In this document: positions 5,631-27,694 of the stretch, piece by piece
Position numbering within the stretch: position 1 is the stretch's first letter
How the letters are laid out: each line of letters opens with the position of its first letter
NCBI GenBank assembly: GCA_947504605.1
Contig: CANNJE010000018.1
Coordinates: 1-33,482, forward strand
Origin: Chitinophagaceae bacterium
Lineage (GTDB): Bacteria > Bacteroidota > Bacteroidia > Chitinophagales > Chitinophagaceae
Length of the DNA: 33,482 bases
Reading direction: 5' to 3'
Program-made: the position numbers and the translations under genes
The notes under the pieces: model-generated
Databases searched by the model: none
Told to the model about the DNA's origin: nothing
What the model saw: the letters and a program-made list of their open reading frames with translations, nothing else

Positions 5631-5801
5631 ATGAAATTGTTAATCTCAGTCATCGGTAGTATCGTAATATTGTTGCTTTTGATTTTCGTTATCTGGAAAA
5701 ATCAAAAGGACAAACAGCAATACGAACAACAACTCAACGATGATTTTTACAAGTCCAAAGAGCAGGAAGGGGATGCAGAACCGGAAGACAGGTTACAATA
5801 A
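5631..5801 (+). CDS. small single-pass membrane protein (56 aa)
   Basis: This ATG-to-TAA frame of 56 codons encodes an N-terminal hydrophobic helix (about residues 3-22, ending ILLLLIFVIW) followed by a charged tail rich in Lys, Gln, Asp and Glu. The topology and the positive residues after the helix suggest an inner-membrane protein with a cytoplasmic tail. Its stop overlaps the 3' end of the convergent GH1 gene by 9 bp. It starts 113 bp after the metallophosphatase and may share its transcript. No family is recognised. Coding status rests on the clean membrane-helix/charged-tail composition. Confidence 0.6.
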   Translation: MKLLISVIGSIVILLLLIFVIWKNQKDKQQYEQQLNDDFYKSKEQEGDAEPEDRLQ

Positions 5802-7178
5802 AATATTTTTCTCTTCCGACTCATTGGTTGCCTGGGGCCTATCCTTTATAAAATCGCTGTACCATTTACCGGAGGCTTTGATGGTTCGTTTTTGTGTTTC
5901 AAAATCAACATATACCAATCCAAATCTTGGGTGAAAACCTTCGGCCCATTCGAAATTATCCAGAAAAGTCCAAACGAAATAGCCGGTTACATTTACGCCT
6001 TCATTTTGAGCCAATAATACTTGTGTGATATAGTTCTTCAGGTATTCGGTTCTTTTTACATCCTCTATGTTATCGTTGATTAACTCGTCTTTAAAAGCAG
6101 CACCGTTTTCGGTAATAATGATTTCTTTTATGCCCGGATAATTATTCAGTCTTTTGAGTGCATGATAAATGGAGGGAGGATAAACTTCCCAGTTCATTAA
6201 AGTACAATCTACGTTTCGTTTATTGGCTTTGATAATTTTTGCTTTTACAAAGGGCATAAAGAGGGCATGGGCCACCAATTCTCTGGTATAATTTTGCAGT
6301 CCGATAAAATCCATTTCAAAAGCCAGTTTGCTTTCATCGCCGGGCAGCATAAATTTTTCTATACGTTTTAATATTTTAAGGTCATTGACCGGGTATCCCA
6401 TTCCCAATAGGGGTTCAATAAACATCCGGTTGAGCAGGGCATCTACTTTTGCCGTAGCAGCTATATCTTTATCTTTTAGAGTGGCAGGTTCCAGGTGCGA
6501 ATAGGAAAAAGTGGTACCTACTTTACTGTCCTTGTATAATTGTTTGATGATGCGTCCACCTTCAGCCTGGCAAAGGGCGGCATGATGAACAGCAGCGAGA
6601 AAATTGTTTAATCCCTTTCTGCCGGGTGCATGTACGCCTAAAAAATAGCCTGCTCCGGTGAATACGCCTGGTTCGTTTAAGACCATCCAATGTTTTACCC
6701 TGTCGCCAAAATGCGATACAGAGCATTTTACAAATTCACTAAACCATCCAATAATTTCCCGGTTGGTCCATCCTCCTTTTTGTTCCAGAGCCTGTGGAAG
6801 ATCCCAGTGATATAAGGTTACCCAGGGGGTAATATTTAATTCCAAACAGCGGTTTATAACGCGGTTGTAGTAATTAATTCCTTCCATGTTTACAACTCCG
6901 GTACCCAGGGGCATAATCCTGCTCCAGGAAATGGAGAAACGGTAATGGCGGATATTCATTTCATTTAATAACTGAATATCATCTGCATAATTGTTGTAAA
7001 AATCACAGGCAATATTGCCATGGTGATTGTCGGCAATTTTTTTGCTTTTTTGTGTAAAGGTATCCCAGATAGAAGGGCCTTTTCCATGTAAGTCGTGTCC
7101 GCCTTCAATTTGGTAAGCTGCTGTAGAAACGCCCCATTTAAAGTCTTCTCCAAAATCTTCCTTGTTAAATTCCATCAT
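5793..7178 (-). CDS. glycoside hydrolase family 1 (beta-glucosidase-like)
   Basis: This 461-aa GH1 (beta/alpha)8 barrel has no signal peptide and is therefore cytoplasmic. It should cleave beta-linked glucosides, galactosides or similar from small substrates. Seen: the N-terminal signature FKWGVSTAAYQIEGG, LYHWDLPQAL, the acid/base Glu169 in LNEPG and the nucleophile Glu357 in ITENG, plus the WAEGF aglycone-site segment near the C-terminus. The frame extends upstream to a TTG at 7211, inside the preceding gene. The ATG-ATG at 7178 is preferred because it directly follows that gene's stop with one base between. It is the third gene of the minus-strand operon with a glycosyltransferase and an LpxH-like enzyme, so its substrate may be a glycolipid-derived or envelope sugar (inference). 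Confidence 0.92.
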   Translation of the reverse strand: MMEFNKEDFGEDFKWGVSTAAYQIEGGHDLHGKGPSIWDTFTQKSKKIADNHHGNIACDFYNNYADDIQLLNEMNIRHYRFSISWSRIMPLGTGVVNMEGINYYNRVINRCLELNITPWVTLYHWDLPQALEQKGGWTNREIIGWFSEFVKCSVSHFGDRVKHWMVLNEPGVFTGAGYFLGVHAPGRKGLNNFLAAVHHAALCQAEGGRIIKQLYKDSKVGTTFSYSHLEPATLKDKDIAATAKVDALLNRMFIEPLLGMGYPVNDLKILKRIEKFMLPGDESKLAFEMDFIGLQNYTRELVAHALFMPFVKAKIIKANKRNVDCTLMNWEVYPPSIYHALKRLNNYPGIKEIIITENGAAFKDELINDNIEDVKRTEYLKNYITQVLLAQNEGVNVTGYFVWTFLDNFEWAEGFHPRFGLVYVDFETQKRTIKASGKWYSDFIKDRPQATNESEEKNILL

Positions 7179-7179
7179 A

Positions 7180-8268
7180 TTAAATTCGGGTTTCTTCCAA
7201 AATTTTACCAAGACTGGCTTCTTTTAATTTTTTAGGAGATGAGATGGCGTCGCCTATTTCTGGATTTTTTGGAGCGTCTGATTTACGGTGTTTATCAATA
7301 ATTGAATCTATGATTGCTTCCGTAACATCCGGGTAATTGATAGAGATCAATACTTGTGAATTTGTCCAAGCTTTTATTTTTTCGAGATGTTTTGATTTAA
7401 GGCTTTTTAAAGTGGGTACCCCCATTTGTTCTAAAGCGGCTGCATTACATTGTTGTTCGTACTGTCCCTTCATGGGAATGACCATCAGTTTCTTTTTTAG
7501 AAACAGGGCTTCTGCAGGGGTTTCAAAACCTGCACCACAAAGCACACCTGTGCAGTTGATAAAACTTTCCACAAAGGCTTCATTGTTAACCGGGCGTATG
7601 TGTATGTTTTTTTCTTTGTATTCTTTTTTTGTGTGTTTGCTAAATACCTGCCATTGGATATTTTTTATTTCACTCAATACTTTTATGATGCGTTTATCGG
7701 AATAGGCGGGTAAATAAACAGTAAAATGATCCTGATTATTTGGAATGGCATTTCGTACCTGGCTTCTGATAACGGGAGTGAATATATTTTTATCATATGC
7801 AGAAAAGTGGAAACCATAGGCCTGGGTTACCGGCGCATAATTGTGCAGGATGGCTTTGCCCAGTGGATCTTTCTTTTTAGGTTTTGGGCTTTTGGCATTG
7901 ATCACAGCAGCCTGATGGCTCATTCCTATACAGGGTTTGTGTTTTAATTTACAAGCCCATGCGCTTACCGGTTCAAAATCATTGATAACAAGGTCGTATG
8001 CTTCAATCGGTAAACTTTTTATTTCAGCGTATAGTTTTTTTAAATTGCTTTTGCGGTAGGTGGCCAGCAGATCGATGCCACCTTTTTTTCCAAAGATAAA
8101 ACTCAAGCCTTTGAACTTATATTTAACCGGGTAGGGTAATTCGAGGTCGGCCTGAATGCCACTTACAAGGATATCAAGTTCTCCTTTTTTTTGCAGGATG
8201 GGTATGATGTCCAGCGCCCTGCTTAGATGTCCGTTACCTGTTCCCTGTATAGCATATAATATTTTCAT
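7180..8268 (-). CDS. glycosyltransferase, GT1/GT28-like (PF13528 type)
   Basis: This 362-aa protein begins with KILYAIQGTGNGHLSRA, the glycine/His loop of GT-B enzymes that read UDP-sugars. It also carries GAGFETPAEALFLKKK (about residues 245-260), matching the C-terminal donor-site signature of MurG/UGT-like enzymes. It lacks a signal peptide and probably acts at the cytoplasmic face of the membrane. Its ATG overlaps the upstream gene's TGA by one base (TGATG), so the two are translationally coupled, and the GH1 gene starts one base after its stop. Family knowledge gives a glycosyltransferase; the acceptor is unknown, perhaps a lipid. Confidence 0.85.
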   Translation of the reverse strand: MKILYAIQGTGNGHLSRALDIIPILQKKGELDILVSGIQADLELPYPVKYKFKGLSFIFGKKGGIDLLATYRKSNLKKLYAEIKSLPIEAYDLVINDFEPVSAWACKLKHKPCIGMSHQAAVINAKSPKPKKKDPLGKAILHNYAPVTQAYGFHFSAYDKNIFTPVIRSQVRNAIPNNQDHFTVYLPAYSDKRIIKVLSEIKNIQWQVFSKHTKKEYKEKNIHIRPVNNEAFVESFINCTGVLCGAGFETPAEALFLKKKLMVIPMKGQYEQQCNAAALEQMGVPTLKSLKSKHLEKIKAWTNSQVLISINYPDVTEAIIDSIIDKHRKSDAPKNPEIGDAISSPKKLKEASLGKILEETRI

Positions 8269-9125
8269 CAGTTGCGCATTGAGTTAAATTCGTCGAGCAT
8301 ATTTTCAAATAATTTATTGTTATCGGGTTCCTCTTCTGCAGTATCCGCTGTTTTCGTTGCCGCAAATTCTTTTTCATCAAATTTATGGATACACCATGTT
8401 CCGTTTGTGTATTCAAGTGCCGTTAAATTTTCGATCCAGTCGCCACTGTTAAGGTAAAGGATTTTGCCTTCATCTGTTACAATTTCTCTCATTTCGGGTT
8501 GATGAATATGGCCGCAAACAACATAATCATACTGATTGCTGATGGCAATATCGGCAGCCGTTTTCTCGAAATTGTCGATGAATTTTACAGCAGACTTTAC
8601 ACTGTTTTTTATTTTTTTTGACAAGGATAGTTTGCCTTGGTTGAATACTTTTTCGGAAACAAAATTGGCAATCCGGTTAATGAGTATCAGGCTATCGTAT
8701 CCTACTGCACCCAGTTTTGCGAGCCACTTGCTGTGCTGCATGGTAATATCAAACACATCGCCATGGAAGAACCAGGCTTTTTTGCCATCCTCCATTTCGA
8801 GAACAACTTTGTTGACTATTTGAAAGGAACCCATTTTAAACCCTACAAATTTTCGGAGCATTTCATCGTGGTTGCCGGTGATATACCAGATTTTGGTACC
8901 CTTGCTCATCCAGCCCATAATATGTTTTACCACTTTCATATGGCTCTTGGGCCAGTAGCGTTTGCTAAACTGCCAGATGTCGATGATATCGCCGTTTAAT
9001 ATAACCGTCTTAGGTTTTATGGTTTTAAGGTAGTGCAGTAGTTCTTTGGCGTGGCATCCGTAAGTGCCCAAATGAATGTCAGATAATACGAGGATATCTA
9101 TTTTGCGTCTTTTTAATTCCTTCAT
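8268..9125 (-). CDS. LpxH-like UDP-2,3-diacylglucosamine diphosphatase family metallophosphoesterase
   Basis: This 285-aa calcineurin-like phosphoesterase has the metal-binding motifs SDIHLG (Asp16, His18), NGDIID (44-49), GNHD (84-87), FFHGD (119-123) and GHIH (205-208), laid out as in LpxH and its Bacteroidota relatives. LpxH cleaves UDP-2,3-diacylglucosamine to lipid X and UMP in lipid A synthesis. Several paralogues of this family exist in Bacteroidota, so the exact substrate is inferred. It is the first gene of the three-gene minus-strand operon and is coupled to the glycosyltransferase, which supports an envelope-glycolipid role. The acidic C-terminal tail (about 250-285) is variable. 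Confidence 0.82.
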   Translation of the reverse strand: MKELKRRKIDILVLSDIHLGTYGCHAKELLHYLKTIKPKTVILNGDIIDIWQFSKRYWPKSHMKVVKHIMGWMSKGTKIWYITGNHDEMLRKFVGFKMGSFQIVNKVVLEMEDGKKAWFFHGDVFDITMQHSKWLAKLGAVGYDSLILINRIANFVSEKVFNQGKLSLSKKIKNSVKSAVKFIDNFEKTAADIAISNQYDYVVCGHIHQPEMREIVTDEGKILYLNSGDWIENLTALEYTNGTWCIHKFDEKEFAATKTADTAEEEPDNNKLFENMLDEFNSMRN

Positions 9126-12416: not shown

Positions 12417-13106
12417 ATGAAAATTGAATTGGTTGTTTTTGATATTGCGGGTACCACGGTAGTAGATAATAATAATGTGAATGATGCATTTAGGGGAGCT
12501 TTTGAAAAAGCAGGTTATCCTGTTGCATTAAAGGAAGTTAATTATGTAATGGGTTACCGAAAAATAGAAGCAATTAAAATTTTGCTCGAAAAATTTTATC
12601 CGGAAGCATTGAATAATGAAATATTAATTCATGAGATACATGATCAGTTTAACGACGATATGTATCATTTTTATTTAACTACAACTACCCTAAAGCCGAT
12701 GCCAGGTGCAGAAGCGATTTTTAATTTATTGCATTTGAATCAAATAAAAATAGGGTTGGATACTGGGTTTCCTAAACTTATAACCAATACGATTATCGAA
12801 AGATTGGGATGGGTTAAAAATGGTTTGGTTGATATGGTAATCTCCAGCGATGAAGTGAATAATGGAAGACCTTCTGCAGAAATGATTCATGCTATTATGA
12901 CTCAACTAGCTGTAGTTAATACACAACAGGTGGCAAAAGTGGGAGATACTGAAGTAGATATACTGGAGGGTAGAAATGCCGATTGTGGGTTGGTGGTTTC
13001 AGTAACCACCGGTTCTTATAAAAGGGAGGAACTACAGCCCTATACACCTGATCATATCATTGATTCTTTGAGTGAATTGAGTGCAATATTAAATTTAAAA
13101 CATTGA
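12417..13106 (+). CDS. phosphonatase-like HAD hydrolase (PhnX-like, TIGR03351 type)
   Basis: This 229-aa cytoplasmic HAD enzyme is predicted to cleave the C-P bond of phosphonoacetaldehyde, or its 1-hydroxy analogue, to an aldehyde and phosphate. Motif I is FDIAGTT with nucleophile Asp9 and the Ala11 that marks phosphonatases instead of Asp. The cap domain carries MGYRK with Lys49, aligning with the Schiff-base lysine of PhnX. The motif III region has Arg in GRPSAEM where most HADs use Lys, and motif IV is VGDTEVDILEG. These features separate it from phosphoglycolate-type HADs. Its TGA overlaps the next gene's TTG start. No PhnW transaminase is nearby; the FAD oxidase and PLP enzyme downstream would supply the aldehyde. 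Confidence 0.85.
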   Translation: MKIELVVFDIAGTTVVDNNNVNDAFRGAFEKAGYPVALKEVNYVMGYRKIEAIKILLEKFYPEALNNEILIHEIHDQFNDDMYHFYLTTTTLKPMPGAEAIFNLLHLNQIKIGLDTGFPKLITNTIIERLGWVKNGLVDMVISSDEVNNGRPSAEMIHAIMTQLAVVNTQQVAKVGDTEVDILEGRNADCGLVVSVTTGSYKREELQPYTPDHIIDSLSELSAILNLKH

Positions 13107-14392
13107 GCAAGGGTTCGCAGCAATCTTTAAACATCCGCTTTTGGGCTTCACCGCTTTATGCTGCTGTAATCTGTTTTTTGACTTATGCCATGGTTTATGG
13201 TTTTCGTAAACCTTTTACAGTGGCTACTTATGAAGAAACAGCGCCCTTGTGGGGCGTTGCTTATAAAAGTTGCCTTGTTATCAGCCAGGTGTTGGGGTAT
13301 ATGTTGAGCAAGTTTTATGGCGTAAAGTTTATTGCAGAGCTTAAAAGGTTTGGACGGGGAAAAATAATTCTTTTGCTGGTAATTGTTTCCTGGCTGGCAC
13401 TATTGATTTTTGCAATTGTTCCGGCACCTTATAATATCCCAGTATTAATGCTCAATGGATTTCCGTTAGGATTGATTTGGGGGATTGTTTTTTCTTTTGT
13501 AGAGGGAAGAAAGGCCACTGATTTTATTGGTGCTGCGCTTGCTGTAAGTTTTATTTTTTCTTCCGGATTTATAAAAACAGTAACAGGGCTTCTTCAACTT
13601 CAATTTTCTATTCCAGATATTTGGCTTCCCTTTTTTGCCGGCTTTTGTTTTTTGATTCCATTGTTATTATTTATCTGGTTACTTGAAAAAATTCCACCAC
13701 CATCCGCATCTGATAATCTGTTACGAACAGAAAGAAAACCTATGTTGAAGGCAGAAAGGAAATTGTATTTAAAAACTTTCTTTCCGGGTATTGTTACATT
13801 GTTAATTATCTATGTTTTTCTGACGGTGTTTAGGGATATCAGGGATAATTTTGCTGCTGATATGTGGTTGGAAATGGGGTTTGCCAATCAGCCGGAGAAA
13901 TTTGTTCAAACAGAAATTCCCATCACTATTGTTGTGTTGTTGTTGATTTCTGCCATGATTTTTATCCGTAATAATTTAAAGGCGCTGATGGTGTCCCATC
14001 TAATCATTGGGGTTGGTTTTATCATTGCGGGAGTTTCCACATTTTTATTTTTGCAGGGCATTCTTCCGCCATTTTACTGGATGACGTTGGTAGGGTTGGG
14101 GTTGTATATGGGATATATCCCTTTTAATTGTGTTCTTTTTGAAAGGATGATCGCAACTTTTAAATATGCAGGTAATGTTGGGTTTTTAATGTATCTGGCT
14201 GATTCGTATGGTTATCTTGCCAGTGTTGCTGTAATGCTGAGTAAAAGTGTGTTTCATATACAGTTGAGCTGGACAACTTTTTATTCTTATGGAGTTATTT
14301 TTTTGTCTGTTGCAGGATTGATAGGGACGCTGGTTTCGGCTTTTTATTTTAATTCGATGTACAATAATAAATTTCATACAAATGGAAAATAA
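13103..14392 (+). CDS. DUF5690 family MFS-type transporter, possible organophosphate/phosphonate antiporter
   Basis: This 429-aa polytopic protein has about 12 hydrophobic helices. The start is TTG at 13103, overlapping the HAD stop as TTGA; the next Met (residue 30) lies inside the first helix, so the TTG is needed. It is recognisable as the Bacteroidota DUF5690 family. By eye it resembles the organophosphate:phosphate antiporters. YGFRKPF (Arg35) corresponds to the TM1 VRKNF of GlpT (Arg45), and VFLTVFR (Arg244) to the TM7 VFVYLLR (Arg269); these are GlpT's two phosphate-binding arginines. The loop after TM2 is also alike. Import of an aminophosphonate in exchange for Pi would suit the operon (inference). 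The next gene overlaps it by 11 bp. Confidence 0.8.
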   Translation: MSKGSQQSLNIRFWASPLYAAVICFLTYAMVYGFRKPFTVATYEETAPLWGVAYKSCLVISQVLGYMLSKFYGVKFIAELKRFGRGKIILLLVIVSWLALLIFAIVPAPYNIPVLMLNGFPLGLIWGIVFSFVEGRKATDFIGAALAVSFIFSSGFIKTVTGLLQLQFSIPDIWLPFFAGFCFLIPLLLFIWLLEKIPPPSASDNLLRTERKPMLKAERKLYLKTFFPGIVTLLIIYVFLTVFRDIRDNFAADMWLEMGFANQPEKFVQTEIPITIVVLLLISAMIFIRNNLKALMVSHLIIGVGFIIAGVSTFLFLQGILPPFYWMTLVGLGLYMGYIPFNCVLFERMIATFKYAGNVGFLMYLADSYGYLASVAVMLSKSVFHIQLSWTTFYSYGVIFLSVAGLIGTLVSAFYFNSMYNNKFHTNGK

Positions 14393-15512
14393 AGCGGCAA
14401 TAGTAATAGGTGCAGGTATTGTGGGATTGGCTACAGCAAGAGCATTGGCTTTAAAAGGTTATGCTGTAAAAGTTTTCGAGCGGAGCAAACCTGCAGTAGG
14501 TGCGTCTGTCCGTAATTTTGGAATGGTATGGCCTATTGGGCAGCCCGAAGGAAAATTGTATGATCGTGCAAAACGCAGCAGGCAAATATGGAAAGAAACC
14601 TGTGAGGCTGCCGGTATCTGGCATGAGGCTGCGGGTAGTTTGCATCTTGCTTATCATAGCGACGAAATGAAAGTGCTAACTGAATTAAGTGAGCAGTTTG
14701 CCAGTCAGGGGCGTGCTGTTTCTTTGCTTGGGCCGGCGGAGATTATTGAAAAGTATGATGCTGTAAATACCGAAAACTTACTAGGAGGATTGTATAGTTC
14801 GGAAGAAATGATTGTAGATCCAAGAGAAGCTATTGCTAAAATACCGGGCTATTTTAGTTCGCAATTTGGTATTGAATTTTTTTGGGGGAAATGTGTAAGT
14901 TATATATCCGACCAAACGGTTTATATTGGTAATGAGGAAGAGCATACGGCTGATATCATATTTGTTTGTAGTGGTGCTGATTTTGAAACCTTGTATCCTG
15001 AAATATTCTCTTCTATACCTATAACAAAATGCAAACTTCAAATGATGCGTCTTGTTTCGCAACCTGATGGTTGGCGAATGGGAACTTCTTTGTGCGGGGG
15101 ACTTTCATTAATTCATTATAATAGTTTTAAAACCGCACCAAGTTTGCATGAATTAAAAGAGCGCTACCAAAAGGAGAAAAACGATTATCTTGATTGGGGT
15201 ATTCATGTGATGGTTTCGCAAAATGGCAAAGGAGAGTTAACTGTTGGAGATTCACATGAATATGGGTTAACTTTTGACCCGTTTGATAAACAATTTATCA
15301 ATGAAATGATTCTAGATTATTTAAAAGATTTTACCCGGTTTAAAGATTATAGCTTATTGGAAAGCTGGAATGGCATTTATCCAAAACTTACCAACGGAGA
15401 TACGGAGGTATTGGTATCGCCTGAAGCCGGTGTGTATATTTTAAATGGATTGGGGGGAGCTGGTATGACGTTGAGTTTTGGATTAGCGGAAGAAGTGGTT
15501 GCTTCTATTTAA
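14382..15512 (+). CDS. TIGR03364 FAD-dependent oxidoreductase (PbfC-like aminophosphonate oxidase)
   Basis: This 376-aa DAO-fold flavoenzyme has the dinucleotide loop VIGAGIVG (8-15), Glu33 for the adenosine ribose, and RNFGMVWP (44-51), a segment typical of the TIGR03364 clade. A C-terminal Gly-rich FAD segment (GLGGAGMTLSFGLA) is also present. The clade is syntenic with phosphonatase-like HADs. Characterised members oxidise N-methylated or plain 2-aminoethylphosphonate to phosphonoacetaldehyde, releasing an amine and H2O2. Here it overlaps the transporter by 11 bp and precedes the PLP enzyme by 12 bp, so all are one transcript. It has no signal peptide and is cytoplasmic. Exact amine preference cannot be read from the sequence. 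Confidence 0.87.
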   Translation: MENKAAIVIGAGIVGLATARALALKGYAVKVFERSKPAVGASVRNFGMVWPIGQPEGKLYDRAKRSRQIWKETCEAAGIWHEAAGSLHLAYHSDEMKVLTELSEQFASQGRAVSLLGPAEIIEKYDAVNTENLLGGLYSSEEMIVDPREAIAKIPGYFSSQFGIEFFWGKCVSYISDQTVYIGNEEEHTADIIFVCSGADFETLYPEIFSSIPITKCKLQMMRLVSQPDGWRMGTSLCGGLSLIHYNSFKTAPSLHELKERYQKEKNDYLDWGIHVMVSQNGKGELTVGDSHEYGLTFDPFDKQFINEMILDYLKDFTRFKDYSLLESWNGIYPKLTNGDTEVLVSPEAGVYILNGLGGAGMTLSFGLAEEVVASI

Positions 15513-15524
15513 CACTTAATATTG

Positions 15525-16874
15525 ATGAATAAAATGGACGAAGCGCATTTACTTACAGAAGGAGATGTAAATTTTTCTGCATCAAGAAAAATGTGGTACA
15601 GTGTATTGGATAAAACGACCTTGGATTTATTGGAAGAGGACGCTCATTATTTTCTACACCAGTCTTTGTCGACTCCCTGTTTGGATGTTTTAGAATCCTG
15701 TGAAGGAATTTATATCAAAGATGTTAGTGGAAAAAGCTATATGGATTTTCACGGGAACAATGTTCATCAGGTTGGATATCGTAATCCCTATGTGATTGAT
15801 AAAATAAAGCAGCAGATGGATATCCTTCCATTTTCTCCGAGGCGATATACAAATGGCATTGCAATTGAATTTTCGAAAAAACTTACTTCCTTATTTCCGG
15901 AATCATTAAACAGGGTATTGTTTGCTCCAGGCGGTACAAGTTCTGTTGGAATAGCCTTAAAGCTGGCAAGGGTAATCACGGGGAAGAATAAAGTGGTGTC
16001 ATTAACTGATTCCTTTCATGGAGCTTCATTAGACGCCATTGCTGTAGGTGGTGAAGCGCAGTTTAAAAAGTATATGGGTCCTTTATTCCCTGAAACAATT
16101 AATATTCCACAGCCAGTTCAGTATCGTACTGATAGCATTGACCCTGATGAAAATTTATATGCAGATGCGCTGGAAGAAATTATTAAGAAGGATCCTCAAA
16201 TAGGTGCATTTATAGCGGAAACCATTCGGAATACCGATGTACAGATTCCAAGCAGGGCATATTGGAAAAGGGTTCGTGAAATTTGTACAGCTTACAATGT
16301 GATACTAATACTGGATGAAATACCTATTGCATTTGGCAGAACAGGTAAAATGTTTGCATTTGAACATTACGATATCGAGCCTGATATTGTTTGTTTGGGA
16401 AAGGGGTTGGGAGCGGGTATAATTCCTTTTGCAGCGATTGTTACAAAGGATCAGTATAATATTGCCGCCGAAGTTTCGCTGGGTCATTATACACATGAAA
16501 AAAGTCCATTGGGTTGTGCTGCGGGTTTGGCCATGATAACCTATATAGAGGAAAATGACTTGTTGAAAAAAGTAAAGGAAGATGAATTGTTTATGCGTTC
16601 GGCACTTTTAAGATTAAAGCAACAATTCCCCATCATTGGGGATGTAAGGGGTATTGGTTTGTTGTGGGGTATTGAGTTGGTGAAGGATTCAGCAACAAAG
16701 GAGAAGGCCATAACAGAAGCAGAAAAAATCATGTATGAATGCCTTCAAAACGGGTTGAGTTTTAAAGTTTCCCAGGGAAATGTTTTACAATTATGTCCGC
16801 CGCTGATTATTACAAGAGCGGAATTAGAAAACGCTGTTTTAATACTGGAAAAGGCTTTTACTTCTATTAGCTGA
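15525..16874 (+). CDS. class III PLP enzyme, probable (R)-1-hydroxy-2-aminoethylphosphonate ammonia-lyase (PbfA-like)
   Basis: This 449-aa fold-type I PLP protein belongs to the class III aminotransferase superfamily. Seen: GGTSSVGIALKLAR (cofactor phosphate site), SFHGASLDA, LDEIPIAFGRTG with the PLP-binding Asp, and the Schiff-base Lys293 in CLGKGLGAG. The usual transaminase DEVQTG is DEIPIA, which fits the lyase branch (PbfA, ethanolamine-phosphate phospho-lyase) better than omega-transaminases. Context with the phosphonatase-like HAD and TIGR03364 oxidase argues for PbfA, which turns 1-hydroxy-2-aminoethylphosphonate into phosphonoacetaldehyde and ammonia. A phosphoethanolamine lyase or an ordinary transaminase remains possible. 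The ATG at 15525 is preferred to the TTG just before it; 15534 is also possible. Confidence 0.8.
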   Translation: MNKMDEAHLLTEGDVNFSASRKMWYSVLDKTTLDLLEEDAHYFLHQSLSTPCLDVLESCEGIYIKDVSGKSYMDFHGNNVHQVGYRNPYVIDKIKQQMDILPFSPRRYTNGIAIEFSKKLTSLFPESLNRVLFAPGGTSSVGIALKLARVITGKNKVVSLTDSFHGASLDAIAVGGEAQFKKYMGPLFPETINIPQPVQYRTDSIDPDENLYADALEEIIKKDPQIGAFIAETIRNTDVQIPSRAYWKRVREICTAYNVILILDEIPIAFGRTGKMFAFEHYDIEPDIVCLGKGLGAGIIPFAAIVTKDQYNIAAEVSLGHYTHEKSPLGCAAGLAMITYIEENDLLKKVKEDELFMRSALLRLKQQFPIIGDVRGIGLLWGIELVKDSATKEKAITEAEKIMYECLQNGLSFKVSQGNVLQLCPPLIITRAELENAVLILEKAFTSIS

Positions 16875-19084: not shown

Positions 19085-19789
19085 TTAATCCTGTAATTCC
19101 ATCATCAATGAATGCGTAGAAGGTATTCTTTCCTCAGGAGTTAAAGTGTATTTCCATTTCTTAAAAGCCGATTTAATGCTCAATGGATGTCTGAGCAGAT
19201 AAACAGCGCATAAACCCGAAACAGCGCCAATTACTGCGCCAATCAAAACATCAGATATACTATTTTGTGAAAGGTAGAGGCGGCTATAGGCCATGAGGAT
19301 TGCTGCTGCTAAAATGGGCAACTGCCATTTTTTATTTTTCAATAATAAAGCGACAACGGTTACTAATGCAAAAGCGGTAGCTGTATGTCCCGAAGGGAAA
19401 CCTACGAAACGATCATAGCTAGTATTGTTAGTAAAAAATAGATATTGACCGGCTTCGAAATACAAAGTAGTTGTTTGATTATATATGTTTTTTATAAGCT
19501 GCACCGTTATGGTGGATATCAGGAATGCATAAAGCATTGTTTTACCCAATGGATATTTCTTCAGGTAAAAAATGATAAAGGCGATACCGCAAACAGCAAA
19601 TAATCCATCACTCATAAAAGTGTAGTTGATAAAAAATACATTCAACAAAATTGGATGGCTGGTATTTTGGAATATCATAAAACCAGTACTTTCTTTTGTC
19701 AATAGAAAAACGATACTTAAAAACAGCGTTGAAGCCAGCGTGAAAAAGTAGGTTTTGTTTTGGCTGACTAAAGTGGCTTTCTGTTGCAT
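19085..19789 (-). CDS. PAP2-fold membrane protein lacking the catalytic histidine
   Basis: This 234-aa protein with about six membrane helices resembles type 2 phosphatidic acid phosphatases. The central motif is intact (FPSGHTATAF, His135). In the third motif the nucleophilic His is replaced by Asn176: SRLYLSQNSISDV against the family's SRxYLxxHxxSD. The first motif KX6RP also looks lost: Lys100 is followed at +7/+8 by Thr-Thr. The DNA codon is a clear AAT. With the nucleophile gone, the protein is probably not an active phosphatase, though the frame is intact. It ends 7 bp from the convergent TonB receptor gene and starts 132 bp after eutC, so it may be read from the same transcript. Confidence 0.85.
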   Translation of the reverse strand: MQQKATLVSQNKTYFFTLASTLFLSIVFLLTKESTGFMIFQNTSHPILLNVFFINYTFMSDGLFAVCGIAFIIFYLKKYPLGKTMLYAFLISTITVQLIKNIYNQTTTLYFEAGQYLFFTNNTSYDRFVGFPSGHTATAFALVTVVALLLKNKKWQLPILAAAILMAYSRLYLSQNSISDVLIGAVIGAVSGLCAVYLLRHPLSIKSAFKKWKYTLTPEERIPSTHSLMMELQD

Positions 19790-19921
19790 ATTCCTTATTT
19801 TGAAAAAGCAAATTCACACTGTAGTTTTACTTTAATGTTAAAACAGTATTAAGGGAATGTTATCAATTAGAGGATGCTGGTCATTTTTAGTAGGGGAATA
19901 AGGAACCAGGCTTAACAGCTA

Positions 19922-26197: not shown

Positions 26198-27694
26198 ATG
26201 AGTATTAAATATTTTATTTTTTTTGCCTGCTACTTTATTATTATTCCTGCAAGTGCGCAGCAATACCCCGAAATGATGGATGTCCCTGGCGGCAGTTTTA
26301 ACATGGGGGGCACAGTACAAAAAGATGAAACGCCCATCCATAAAGTAACGCTGACCAGTTTTAGGTTGGCCAAAACCGAAACTACCGTAGCGCAGTGGCG
26401 TGTTTTTTGTAACGCCACAGGACGTTCAATGCCCAAAGCGCCCGACTGGGGCTGGATAGACAATTATCCTATAGTGAATGTGAGCTGGAATGATGCGATA
26501 GCCTATTGTAATTGGCTGAGCAAAAAAACGGGCAAACGCTACCGCCTGCCCACGGAGGCGGAATGGGAATATGCCGCCCGTGGTGGTAATAAAAGCAAAG
26601 GGTATACTTATGCCGGCAGTGATTTTTTAGATGGCATAAGCTGGTATAAAGACAATGCCGCTTCTCGAGCATATGCCTGTGGTTTAAAACGTTCCAATGA
26701 GTTGGGCTTGTACGATATGAGCGGTAATGTAGCGGAATGGTGCAATGACTGGTATGACGCAACTTATTATGCAGATTGCCCAAATGACAATCCGAAAGGT
26801 CCTTATGATGGTTCCTATCGTATCGTGCGTGGCGGAAGCTGGAACAATTCGCCGACATTTTCCAAAGTTGAAACCCGTACAGGAGAAGAAGATCTTTCGA
26901 AAGGGCATTCGAACTGTGGTTTTCGGGTGGTACTTTCCATTGATAAGGCAGATACCGATTCAAAATGGGAGGGTTCTGAATATGTTTTTGATTTTGGTGA
27001 TCTTAGTAATTACCTCGAAATGATTGATGTCCCTGGTGGTAGTTTTAACATGGGAGGCGCAAAAGGAACCGATGAAAAGCCCATCCATCAAGTAACGCTG
27101 AACAGTTTTTTTATGGCCCAAAAAGAAACTACGGTGAAGCAGTGGAAATTATATTGTACTGAAACAGGCAAAAAAATGCCCAAAGTACCCAACTGGGGCT
27201 GGATAGACAATTATCCTATTGTGAATGTGAGCTGGAATGAGGCGGTGGCCTATTGTAATTGGCTGAGCAAAGAAGAGGGCCAATCCTACCGCCTACCCAC
27301 GGAGGCAGAATGGGAATATGCCGCCCGTGGTGGCAATAAAAGCGAAGGGTATATTTATGCCGGCAGTGATAATTTAGACGAAGTTGGCTGGAATAAAGAC
27401 AACGCTGCTTTTAAAGCGCATGACATTTTCGAAATATATAAAAAATCCAATGAGCTTGGTTTGAACAATATGAGCGGCAATGTATGGGAATGGTGTAATG
27501 ACCGCTATGTTGCAACTTATTATGCCAAAAGCCCATCTACCAATCCTCAAGGACCTTCAGTTGGCTCTTATCGTGTTGTGCGTGGTGGTAGTTTTGATAC
27601 TCCGGCGTTGAATTGCCGAGTAGTATCCCGTTATTACAATGTCCCTACTCTTGTTAGTTCCTCTTATGGTTTTCGGGTGGTTTTTTCGCTTTAA
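26198..27694 (+). CDS. secreted protein with two tandem SUMF1 (FGE-sulfatase-like) domains
   Basis: This 498-aa exported protein has a signal peptide at about 1-20. It carries two copies of a SUMF1/FGE-type C-lectin-fold domain: about 24-249 and 273-498. Each copy has MxDVPGGSFNMGG, ETTVxQW, IDNYPIVNVSWN, YRLPTEAEWEYAARGG, SGNVxEWCNDxY, SYRxVRGGS and a GFRVV end. The copies are offset by exactly 249 codons and strongly alike in DNA. The aerobic FGE Cys pair near the C-terminus is not conserved, so formylglycine synthesis is unlikely; such domains in Bacteroidota often serve binding or structural roles. It follows the WG gene by 68 bp. Confidence 0.88.
   Translation: MSIKYFIFFACYFIIIPASAQQYPEMMDVPGGSFNMGGTVQKDETPIHKVTLTSFRLAKTETTVAQWRVFCNATGRSMPKAPDWGWIDNYPIVNVSWNDAIAYCNWLSKKTGKRYRLPTEAEWEYAARGGNKSKGYTYAGSDFLDGISWYKDNAASRAYACGLKRSNELGLYDMSGNVAEWCNDWYDATYYADCPNDNPKGPYDGSYRIVRGGSWNNSPTFSKVETRTGEEDLSKGHSNCGFRVVLSIDKADTDSKWEGSEYVFDFGDLSNYLEMIDVPGGSFNMGGAKGTDEKPIHQVTLNSFFMAQKETTVKQWKLYCTETGKKMPKVPNWGWIDNYPIVNVSWNEAVAYCNWLSKEEGQSYRLPTEAEWEYAARGGNKSEGYIYAGSDNLDEVGWNKDNAAFKAHDIFEIYKKSNELGLNNMSGNVWEWCNDRYVATYYAKSPSTNPQGPSVGSYRVVRGGSFDTPALNCRVVSRYYNVPTLVSSSYGFRVVFSL
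26270..27691 (+). repeat. internal 747-bp-period tandem duplication (two units)
   Basis: Unit 1 starts at 26270 and unit 2 at 27017. Landmarks such as GTGAATGTGAGCTGGAATGA (26474 and 27221) and CCCACGGAGGC (26549/27296; the second copy differs from unit 1 soon after) recur with a constant 747-bp offset. Between them are stretches diverged at synonymous and nonsynonymous sites, so the duplication is not brand new, or it is kept alike in patches by conversion. Confidence 0.85.

Follow-up and report, generated by a model that had tools for sequence, protein, structure and literature searches.

We propose that a minus-strand gene at positions 19085-19789 of the 33,482-nucleotide stretch of DNA analysed here (the window) encodes a PAP2-fold pseudophosphatase of 234 amino acids. 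The explanation that we narrowly favour is that its product is a silent PAP2 membrane protein belonging to a genus-level family of pseudoenzymes, and that it still binds the head group of a lipid phosphate. The two functional parts of this proposal are not equally strong. By analogy with a characterized phosphatase, the protein is very probably silent in catalysis, and a role as a binder or sensor of lipid phosphates is plausible, if a little short of probable.

The open reading frame begins with ATG and contains no internal stops, and its product matches the Pfam PAP2 model at 70.8 bits (cut-off 27.2), which places it in the PAP2 superfamily. The catalytic motif C2 (PSGH) is intact within FPSGHT at residues 131-136 (19382-19399, minus strand), with Ser133 and His135 both present. 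The catalytic form of motif C1 (KxxxxxxRP) is absent; the corresponding region, residues 100-108 (19466-19492, minus strand), reads K100-NIYNQTTT, which keeps Lys100, has lost the Arg-Pro, and is one residue shorter than the canonical motif. Motif C3 (SRxxxxxHxxxD) also departs from its catalytic form, residues 169-180 (19250-19285, minus strand) reading SRLYLSQNSISD. Here, in S169-R170-LYLSQ-N176-SIS-D180, the Ser, Arg170, and Asp180 are kept, and the nucleophilic His is replaced by Asn176, which lies six residues past Arg170 and is encoded by AAT (19262-19264, minus strand). An earlier note on this DNA had described Asn in place of the nucleophile, a motif-1 Lys without its following Arg-Pro, and an otherwise intact frame and fold, and our reading bears out all three. 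The genome itself holds one further match (G000:C4), a canonical protein that shares just 35% identity with the window protein across the second half. In the region of TM1-TM2, a stretch containing H45, N50, N55, and D61 (H....NxFFxNxTFxGD) is conserved in the canonical and in most degenerate proteins described below; no function for it is known to us.

The nearest solved relative of the window protein by both profile and fold is LpxE from Aquifex aeolicus (PDB 6ebu), a PAP2-superfamily enzyme that actively dephosphorylates lipid A. It ranks first when the family profile is compared with solved structures (E 1e-24). It is likewise the best Foldseek match to the predicted model of the window protein (built from a 14-sequence alignment, mean pLDDT 68), with a probability of 1.00 and an E-value of only 2.3e-3, no match falling below 1e-3. 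VIA-align gave the model a Z of 12.6 over 118 residues with LpxE and of 10.7 with a B. subtilis PAP2 phosphatase, the first clearly unrelated row standing at 6.3, although values below about 13 can reflect the common arrangement in helical bundles. The predicted structure of the window protein has the PAP2 helical core. The crystallised LpxE retains the motif-3 His, whereas the window protein lacks both this residue and the motif-1 Arg. Its top NCBIfam match is the SepP undecaprenyl-diphosphatase (NF047884), whose curated cut-off of 250 bits is far above the 35.5 bits obtained, and the match does not support membership of that family.

The window protein is one of a family. Within 93 genomes of the same genus (taken as Ferruginibacter), searched with the window protein and a profile of degenerate members and then read as sequences, there are 12 intact homologues without the C1 Arg, encoded by ORFs of 213-249 amino acids; matches below about 70 bits in the profile search belong to other PAP2 families, of which a part was read. 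Position 176 is Asn in the window protein (G000) and G063, Asp in G020, G017, G051, and G062, Glu in G044, Gln in G010, and His in G080, G036, G081, and G074. His176 is thus gone from eight of the 12, with no replacement other than Asp (four), Asn (two), Glu (one), and Gln (one). The earlier note had asked whether the His-to-Asn change is fixed in a clade of orthologues; Asn proves to be confined to two of the 12 proteins, and the trait common to all of them is loss of the C1 Arg. The same counts make it clear that the change is not peculiar to one strain.

The remaining motif positions differ widely in how often they are kept among the 12 degenerate proteins. The C3 His and C3 Asp each survive in four, the C2 Pro in five, the C2 Gly in six, and the C1 Lys (Lys100) and C2 His (His135) in 10 each. 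The C2 Ser (Ser133) and C3 Arg (Arg170) are present in all 12, and N50, N55, F58, Q97, E112, and L173 are likewise invariant. In the 14 full-length canonical orthologues from the genus, the C1 Lys and Arg, the C2 Pro-Ser-Gly-His, and the C3 Ser, Arg, His, and Asp are all present, and two partial ones (G072 and G091) retain the His. Because the C1 Arg and C3 His also occur together in all 51 further homologues (18 from the genus and 33 from outside it), as in 14/14 canonical orthologues, the altered motifs of the window protein reflect more than chance.

All 33 distinct homologues read from outside the genus, representing 56 loci, are canonical (Arg, PSGH, and His kept), and degenerate copies are possible among the weaker, unread matches there. 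The main tree and the 51 rows just mentioned leave out the fragments L103, L108, L109, and L110 and the distant PAP2 families L046, L049, L050, L111, and L112; when fragments and distant families are included, 59 of 60 other rows have the C1 Arg and one has a gap. An 81-amino-acid fragment (L030) was kept out of the trees and the motif alignment, and L094 was dropped as a duplicate of L107. The L094 record (CALPIT020000045.1) is titled Streptomyces griseus, a title that looks wrong, as its PAP2 protein is identical to that of L107, from the genus-mate G074, and the two contigs are equally long (13468).

In a tree built with the three motif stretches removed and with nine of the 33 outside-genus rows, the 12 degenerate proteins and 14 canonical orthologues form a group of 26 (support 96/94). 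Nested inside it, 11 of the 12 degenerate proteins make up a single clade (95/94), to which the canonical G054 is sister (89/80). The twelfth, G080 (L034), lies on a long branch elsewhere in the group of 26 on the best tree, and an AU test does not reject a single clade of all 12 (p 0.101); given the long branches, inner placements are uncertain. The first lineage to diverge within the clade on the best tree is that of the window protein (fork 82/84); its end branch measures 0.9, and only G081, G074, and G017 have shorter ones there. The same tree calls for four losses of His if loss is irreversible, and for fewer if regain is allowed.

Canonical genes lie in a recurring but variable neighbourhood, comprising genes for a TonB-dependent-receptor-like protein, a protein without a Pfam match, PAP2, a GtrA-type protein (PF04138), and PMT_2. 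After these comes a GH1 / Glyco_trans_1_3 / calcineurin-like trio, and several of the neighbourhoods also have genes for a histidine kinase and a response regulator. The PMT_2 glycosyltransferase is presumably ArnT-like or of family GT83, and we take the GtrA-type membrane protein to be a flippase. PMT_2 adjoins 13 of the 16 canonical genes (14 full-length and two partial; nine cases by context and four by contig positions) and none of the 12 degenerate ones (Fisher's test, 1.5e-5), a count that is not independent, as the rows share ancestry. Genome-wide, only one of the 12 genomes with a degenerate PAP2 has a PMT_2 gene (G044), 36% identical and on another contig. A GtrA-type gene adjoins 11/16 canonical versus 0/12 degenerate genes, G044 having a copy elsewhere.

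The sister of the degenerate clade, G054 (assembly 88% complete), is canonical and has neither the PMT_2 nor the GtrA-type gene, so the partners were probably lost before the residues. Losing the partner need not mean losing catalysis, since G078 and G072 are without PMT_2 and retain the His. A possible early stage of partner loss is seen at L042 4755-6189 (G003): the PAP2 gene there is canonical and intact, but the PMT_2 gene next to it is split in two, and the match contains two TGA stops.

Eight of the 12 degenerate genes (G036, G081, G074, G017, G010, G044, G051, and G062) are still housed in the ancestral locus. In five of these (G036, G017, G044, G051, and G062) the direct neighbour is a convergently oriented histidine kinase gene, which does not adjoin PAP2 directly in any of the 10 canonical contexts drawn (L036-L045). 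This adjacency of genes fits a sensor role, but may reflect no more than deletion of intervening genes. For G020, G063, and G080, no ancestral-locus neighbours occur on the stretches read, two of these contigs being short. The window, too, has the trio found next to canonical PAP2 genes in relatives (GH1 glycosidase, Glyco_trans_1_3 glycosyltransferase, and calcineurin-like phosphoesterase). This trio (minus strand, 5793-9125) is separated from the PAP2 gene by about 10 kb that include the phosphonate genes. Its glycosyltransferase is MJ1255-like, below the NCBIfam cut-off of that model.

Proteins that have shed both partners and catalytic residues could be in slow decay, the phosphatase having become unneeded once its glycosyltransferase partner was lost, and drifting since with a frame kept open by chance or by weak constraint. 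We regard this as unlikely, although several observations agree with it: the partner genes are gone, the residues lost differ between lineages, and a second, distant degenerate pair (G017/G051) has a dN/dS of 0.33. In addition, the median path from the common ancestor is 3.15 for degenerate (n=12) versus 0.91 for canonical proteins (n=14), and this faster evolution also fits partial decay. Against this, all 12 frames have stayed intact over long branches, Q97, E112, S133, R170, and L173 have not changed in any of the 12 proteins, and the second codon position is less divergent than the third in 13/13 pairs compared. Moreover, the close degenerate pair G081/G074, which retains the His and is apart from the window lineage (itself without a close relative in the set), has a dN of 0.116, a dS of 0.940, and a dN/dS of 0.124 (NG86), or 0.18 by LWL85. 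Four canonical pairs have values of 0.07-0.15, G065/G069 being saturated and G007/G060 representing a paralogous subfamily.

Judged from its codons, this one close pair of degenerate genes shows purifying selection. Taken together, dN/dS, codon positions, and path lengths indicate that constraint on the degenerate proteins is relaxed but not absent. The proposal of the earlier note, a repurposed pseudophosphatase as opposed to a decaying gene, is therefore strengthened by an intact and diversified clade and by one pair under purifying selection, although the His-to-Asn change is not itself the fixed trait.

An altered enzyme, in which Asp, Glu, Asn, or Gln at position 176 supports another chemistry (an acyl-phosphate on Asp, or a transferase reaction) and another substrate, seems to us somewhat more doubtful than slow decay. 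Its appeal lies in the uniformity of the replacements, all eight being D, N, E, or Q. For the four losses on the best tree, a one-step mutation model (Glu being two steps from His) puts the probability that every outcome falls among these residues at about 0.7-6%, according to the transition bias. The retention of His135 in most of the degenerate proteins also agrees with this idea. However, Asn and Gln (three of the eight, the window protein included) cannot form an acyl-phosphate, and the C1 Arg is lost throughout. Furthermore, position 176 precedes a predicted helix (178-200 in the model). Asp and Asn are common helix caps, and a helix-cap preference would explain the bias as well as chemistry would.

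The surroundings of the gene might be taken to suggest yet another role. Phosphonate-use genes occupy 12417-16874 on the plus strand and encode a PhnX-like HAD hydrolase (under the NCBIfam cut-off), a DUF5690 membrane protein, a TIGR03364 oxidoreductase, and PbfA, a 1-hydroxy-2-aminoethylphosphonate ammonia-lyase that scores above its NCBIfam cut-off. They are followed by a TonB receptor and then, on the other strand, by eutBC and an ethanolamine permease; by its predicted gene content, this whole region is a joint aminophosphonate and ethanolamine island. Elsewhere in the window, an ORF at 26198-27694 (plus strand) has two tandem formylglycine-generating-enzyme-like domains (FGE-sulfatase, PF03781).

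The PAP2 gene lies on the strand of eutC and 132 bp downstream of it, a distance already given in the earlier note, and co-transcription with the ethanolamine permease and eutBC could point to a role in ethanolamine use. We consider such a role very improbable. The gap (19790-19921, minus strand) contains one weak Bacteroidota-type promoter-like match, a kind that occurs 0.45 times per 132 bp on the minus strand of the window. Across the genus, eutB is present in nine of the 93 genomes and, among the 12 with a degenerate PAP2, in the window genome only. In seven of the other eight eutB genomes, eutB and the best PAP2 match are on different contigs, and the last of them, G067, yields no PAP2 match at threshold. 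The order eutB-eutC-PAP2 is seen in the window genome alone, and function should not be read from it; a shared function with the eut genes is rejected on these comparative grounds. Finally, it is scarcely credible that the gene encodes a normal phosphatase and that mistakes in assembly or sequencing produced the odd residues. We reject this, for although the genome assembly is fragmented (224 contigs) and CAT to AAT is one base, two separate motifs are altered and changes of this kind occur at these sites in 11 other genomes.

For the favoured explanation, a silent protein that still binds a lipid phosphate, Escherichia coli PgpB provides a yardstick. PMC7413402 reports no detectable activity for H207A, 2% on C55-PP and 0.4% on PGP for R104A, 3% and 0.4% for P105A, 0.14% and 0.03% for S161A, and 25% and 0.3% for R201A. 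The window protein should be inactive on this evidence, because the equivalents of H207 and R104 are both missing. The same source records that phosphate buffer raises the Tm of H207A by 17.1 degrees C, which its authors credit to R104, S161, and R201. The counterparts of Ser133 and Arg170 thus hold phosphate in PgpB, and both are kept throughout the degenerate set. Phosphate binding by the window protein may be weaker, because it has equivalents of only two of these three residues, that of R104 being absent. Nor is the binding site fully conserved in the family, since Lys100 and His135 are each lost in two of the 12. PgpB H207A (PDB 8bm3, titled as a farnesyl pyrophosphate complex) resembles the window protein in lacking the nucleophilic His while keeping the fold; it differs in being a laboratory mutant that has the C1 Arg, whereas the window protein is a natural loss in which that Arg is gone as well. 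The four degenerate proteins that keep the His might, to go by their motifs, have slight activity.

The closest functional parallel appears to be the vertebrate LPR/PRG group of PAP2-family pseudoenzymes. According to PMC5798408, N or S always takes the place of the motif-3 His in these proteins, and the loss of other catalytic residues varies among them. With N176 and no C1 Arg, the window protein agrees with this description; among the other 11 degenerate proteins, which have D, N, E, Q, or H, only G063 has a residue of the N-or-S kind. The likeness drawn here is one of working; the clade of the window protein is nested among canonical bacterial orthologues from a single genus. Among the 50 VIA-align matches listed, none is named as an LPR/PRG entry. 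In the titles and abstracts of the open-access papers searched, subscription papers lying outside this coverage, we found no description of a bacterial family of PAP2 or lipid phosphate phosphatase proteins that are pseudoenzymes or lack activity.

We postulate the following course of events. The tree and synteny support an ancestor that would have been a canonical LpxE/PgpB-like lipid phosphatase encoded beside PMT_2 and often a GtrA-type protein. The partner genes would then have been lost on the line leading to the clade, a step with moderate support, as the canonical sister is also without them. The sequence changes that followed are the loss of the phosphate-binding C1 Arg and, several times, of the nucleophilic His, and the published PgpB mutants suggest that together these would abolish turnover. 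With Ser133, Arg170, and mostly Lys100 and His135 retained, the protein may still bind, on the periplasmic side, the head group of a lipid phosphate. The outcome would be a binder, sensor, or chaperone of lipid phosphates, much like the role that LPR/PRG proteins are thought to have.

Thus, it is tempting to speculate, and we do so tentatively, that the degenerate Ferruginibacter PAP2 proteins are a bacterial counterpart of LPR/PRG: having lost their partners, then the C1 Arg, and repeatedly the His (with D, N, E, and Q seen in its place), they would act as selected receptors or chaperones that do not cut their ligand, in several species perhaps informing the adjacent histidine kinase and response regulator. 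One practical consequence is a warning for annotation, as the window protein clears the Pfam PAP2 cut-off and yet, from its motifs, is probably no phosphatase. PAP2 pseudoenzymes have already been described in vertebrates (PMC5798408), and what is put forward here is a bacterial family at the level of a genus. Within this genus it is partly possible to read in which order partners and residues were lost. Active and dead-looking orthologues coexist there, often at one locus, so that the emergence of a pseudoenzyme can be tested one step at a time.
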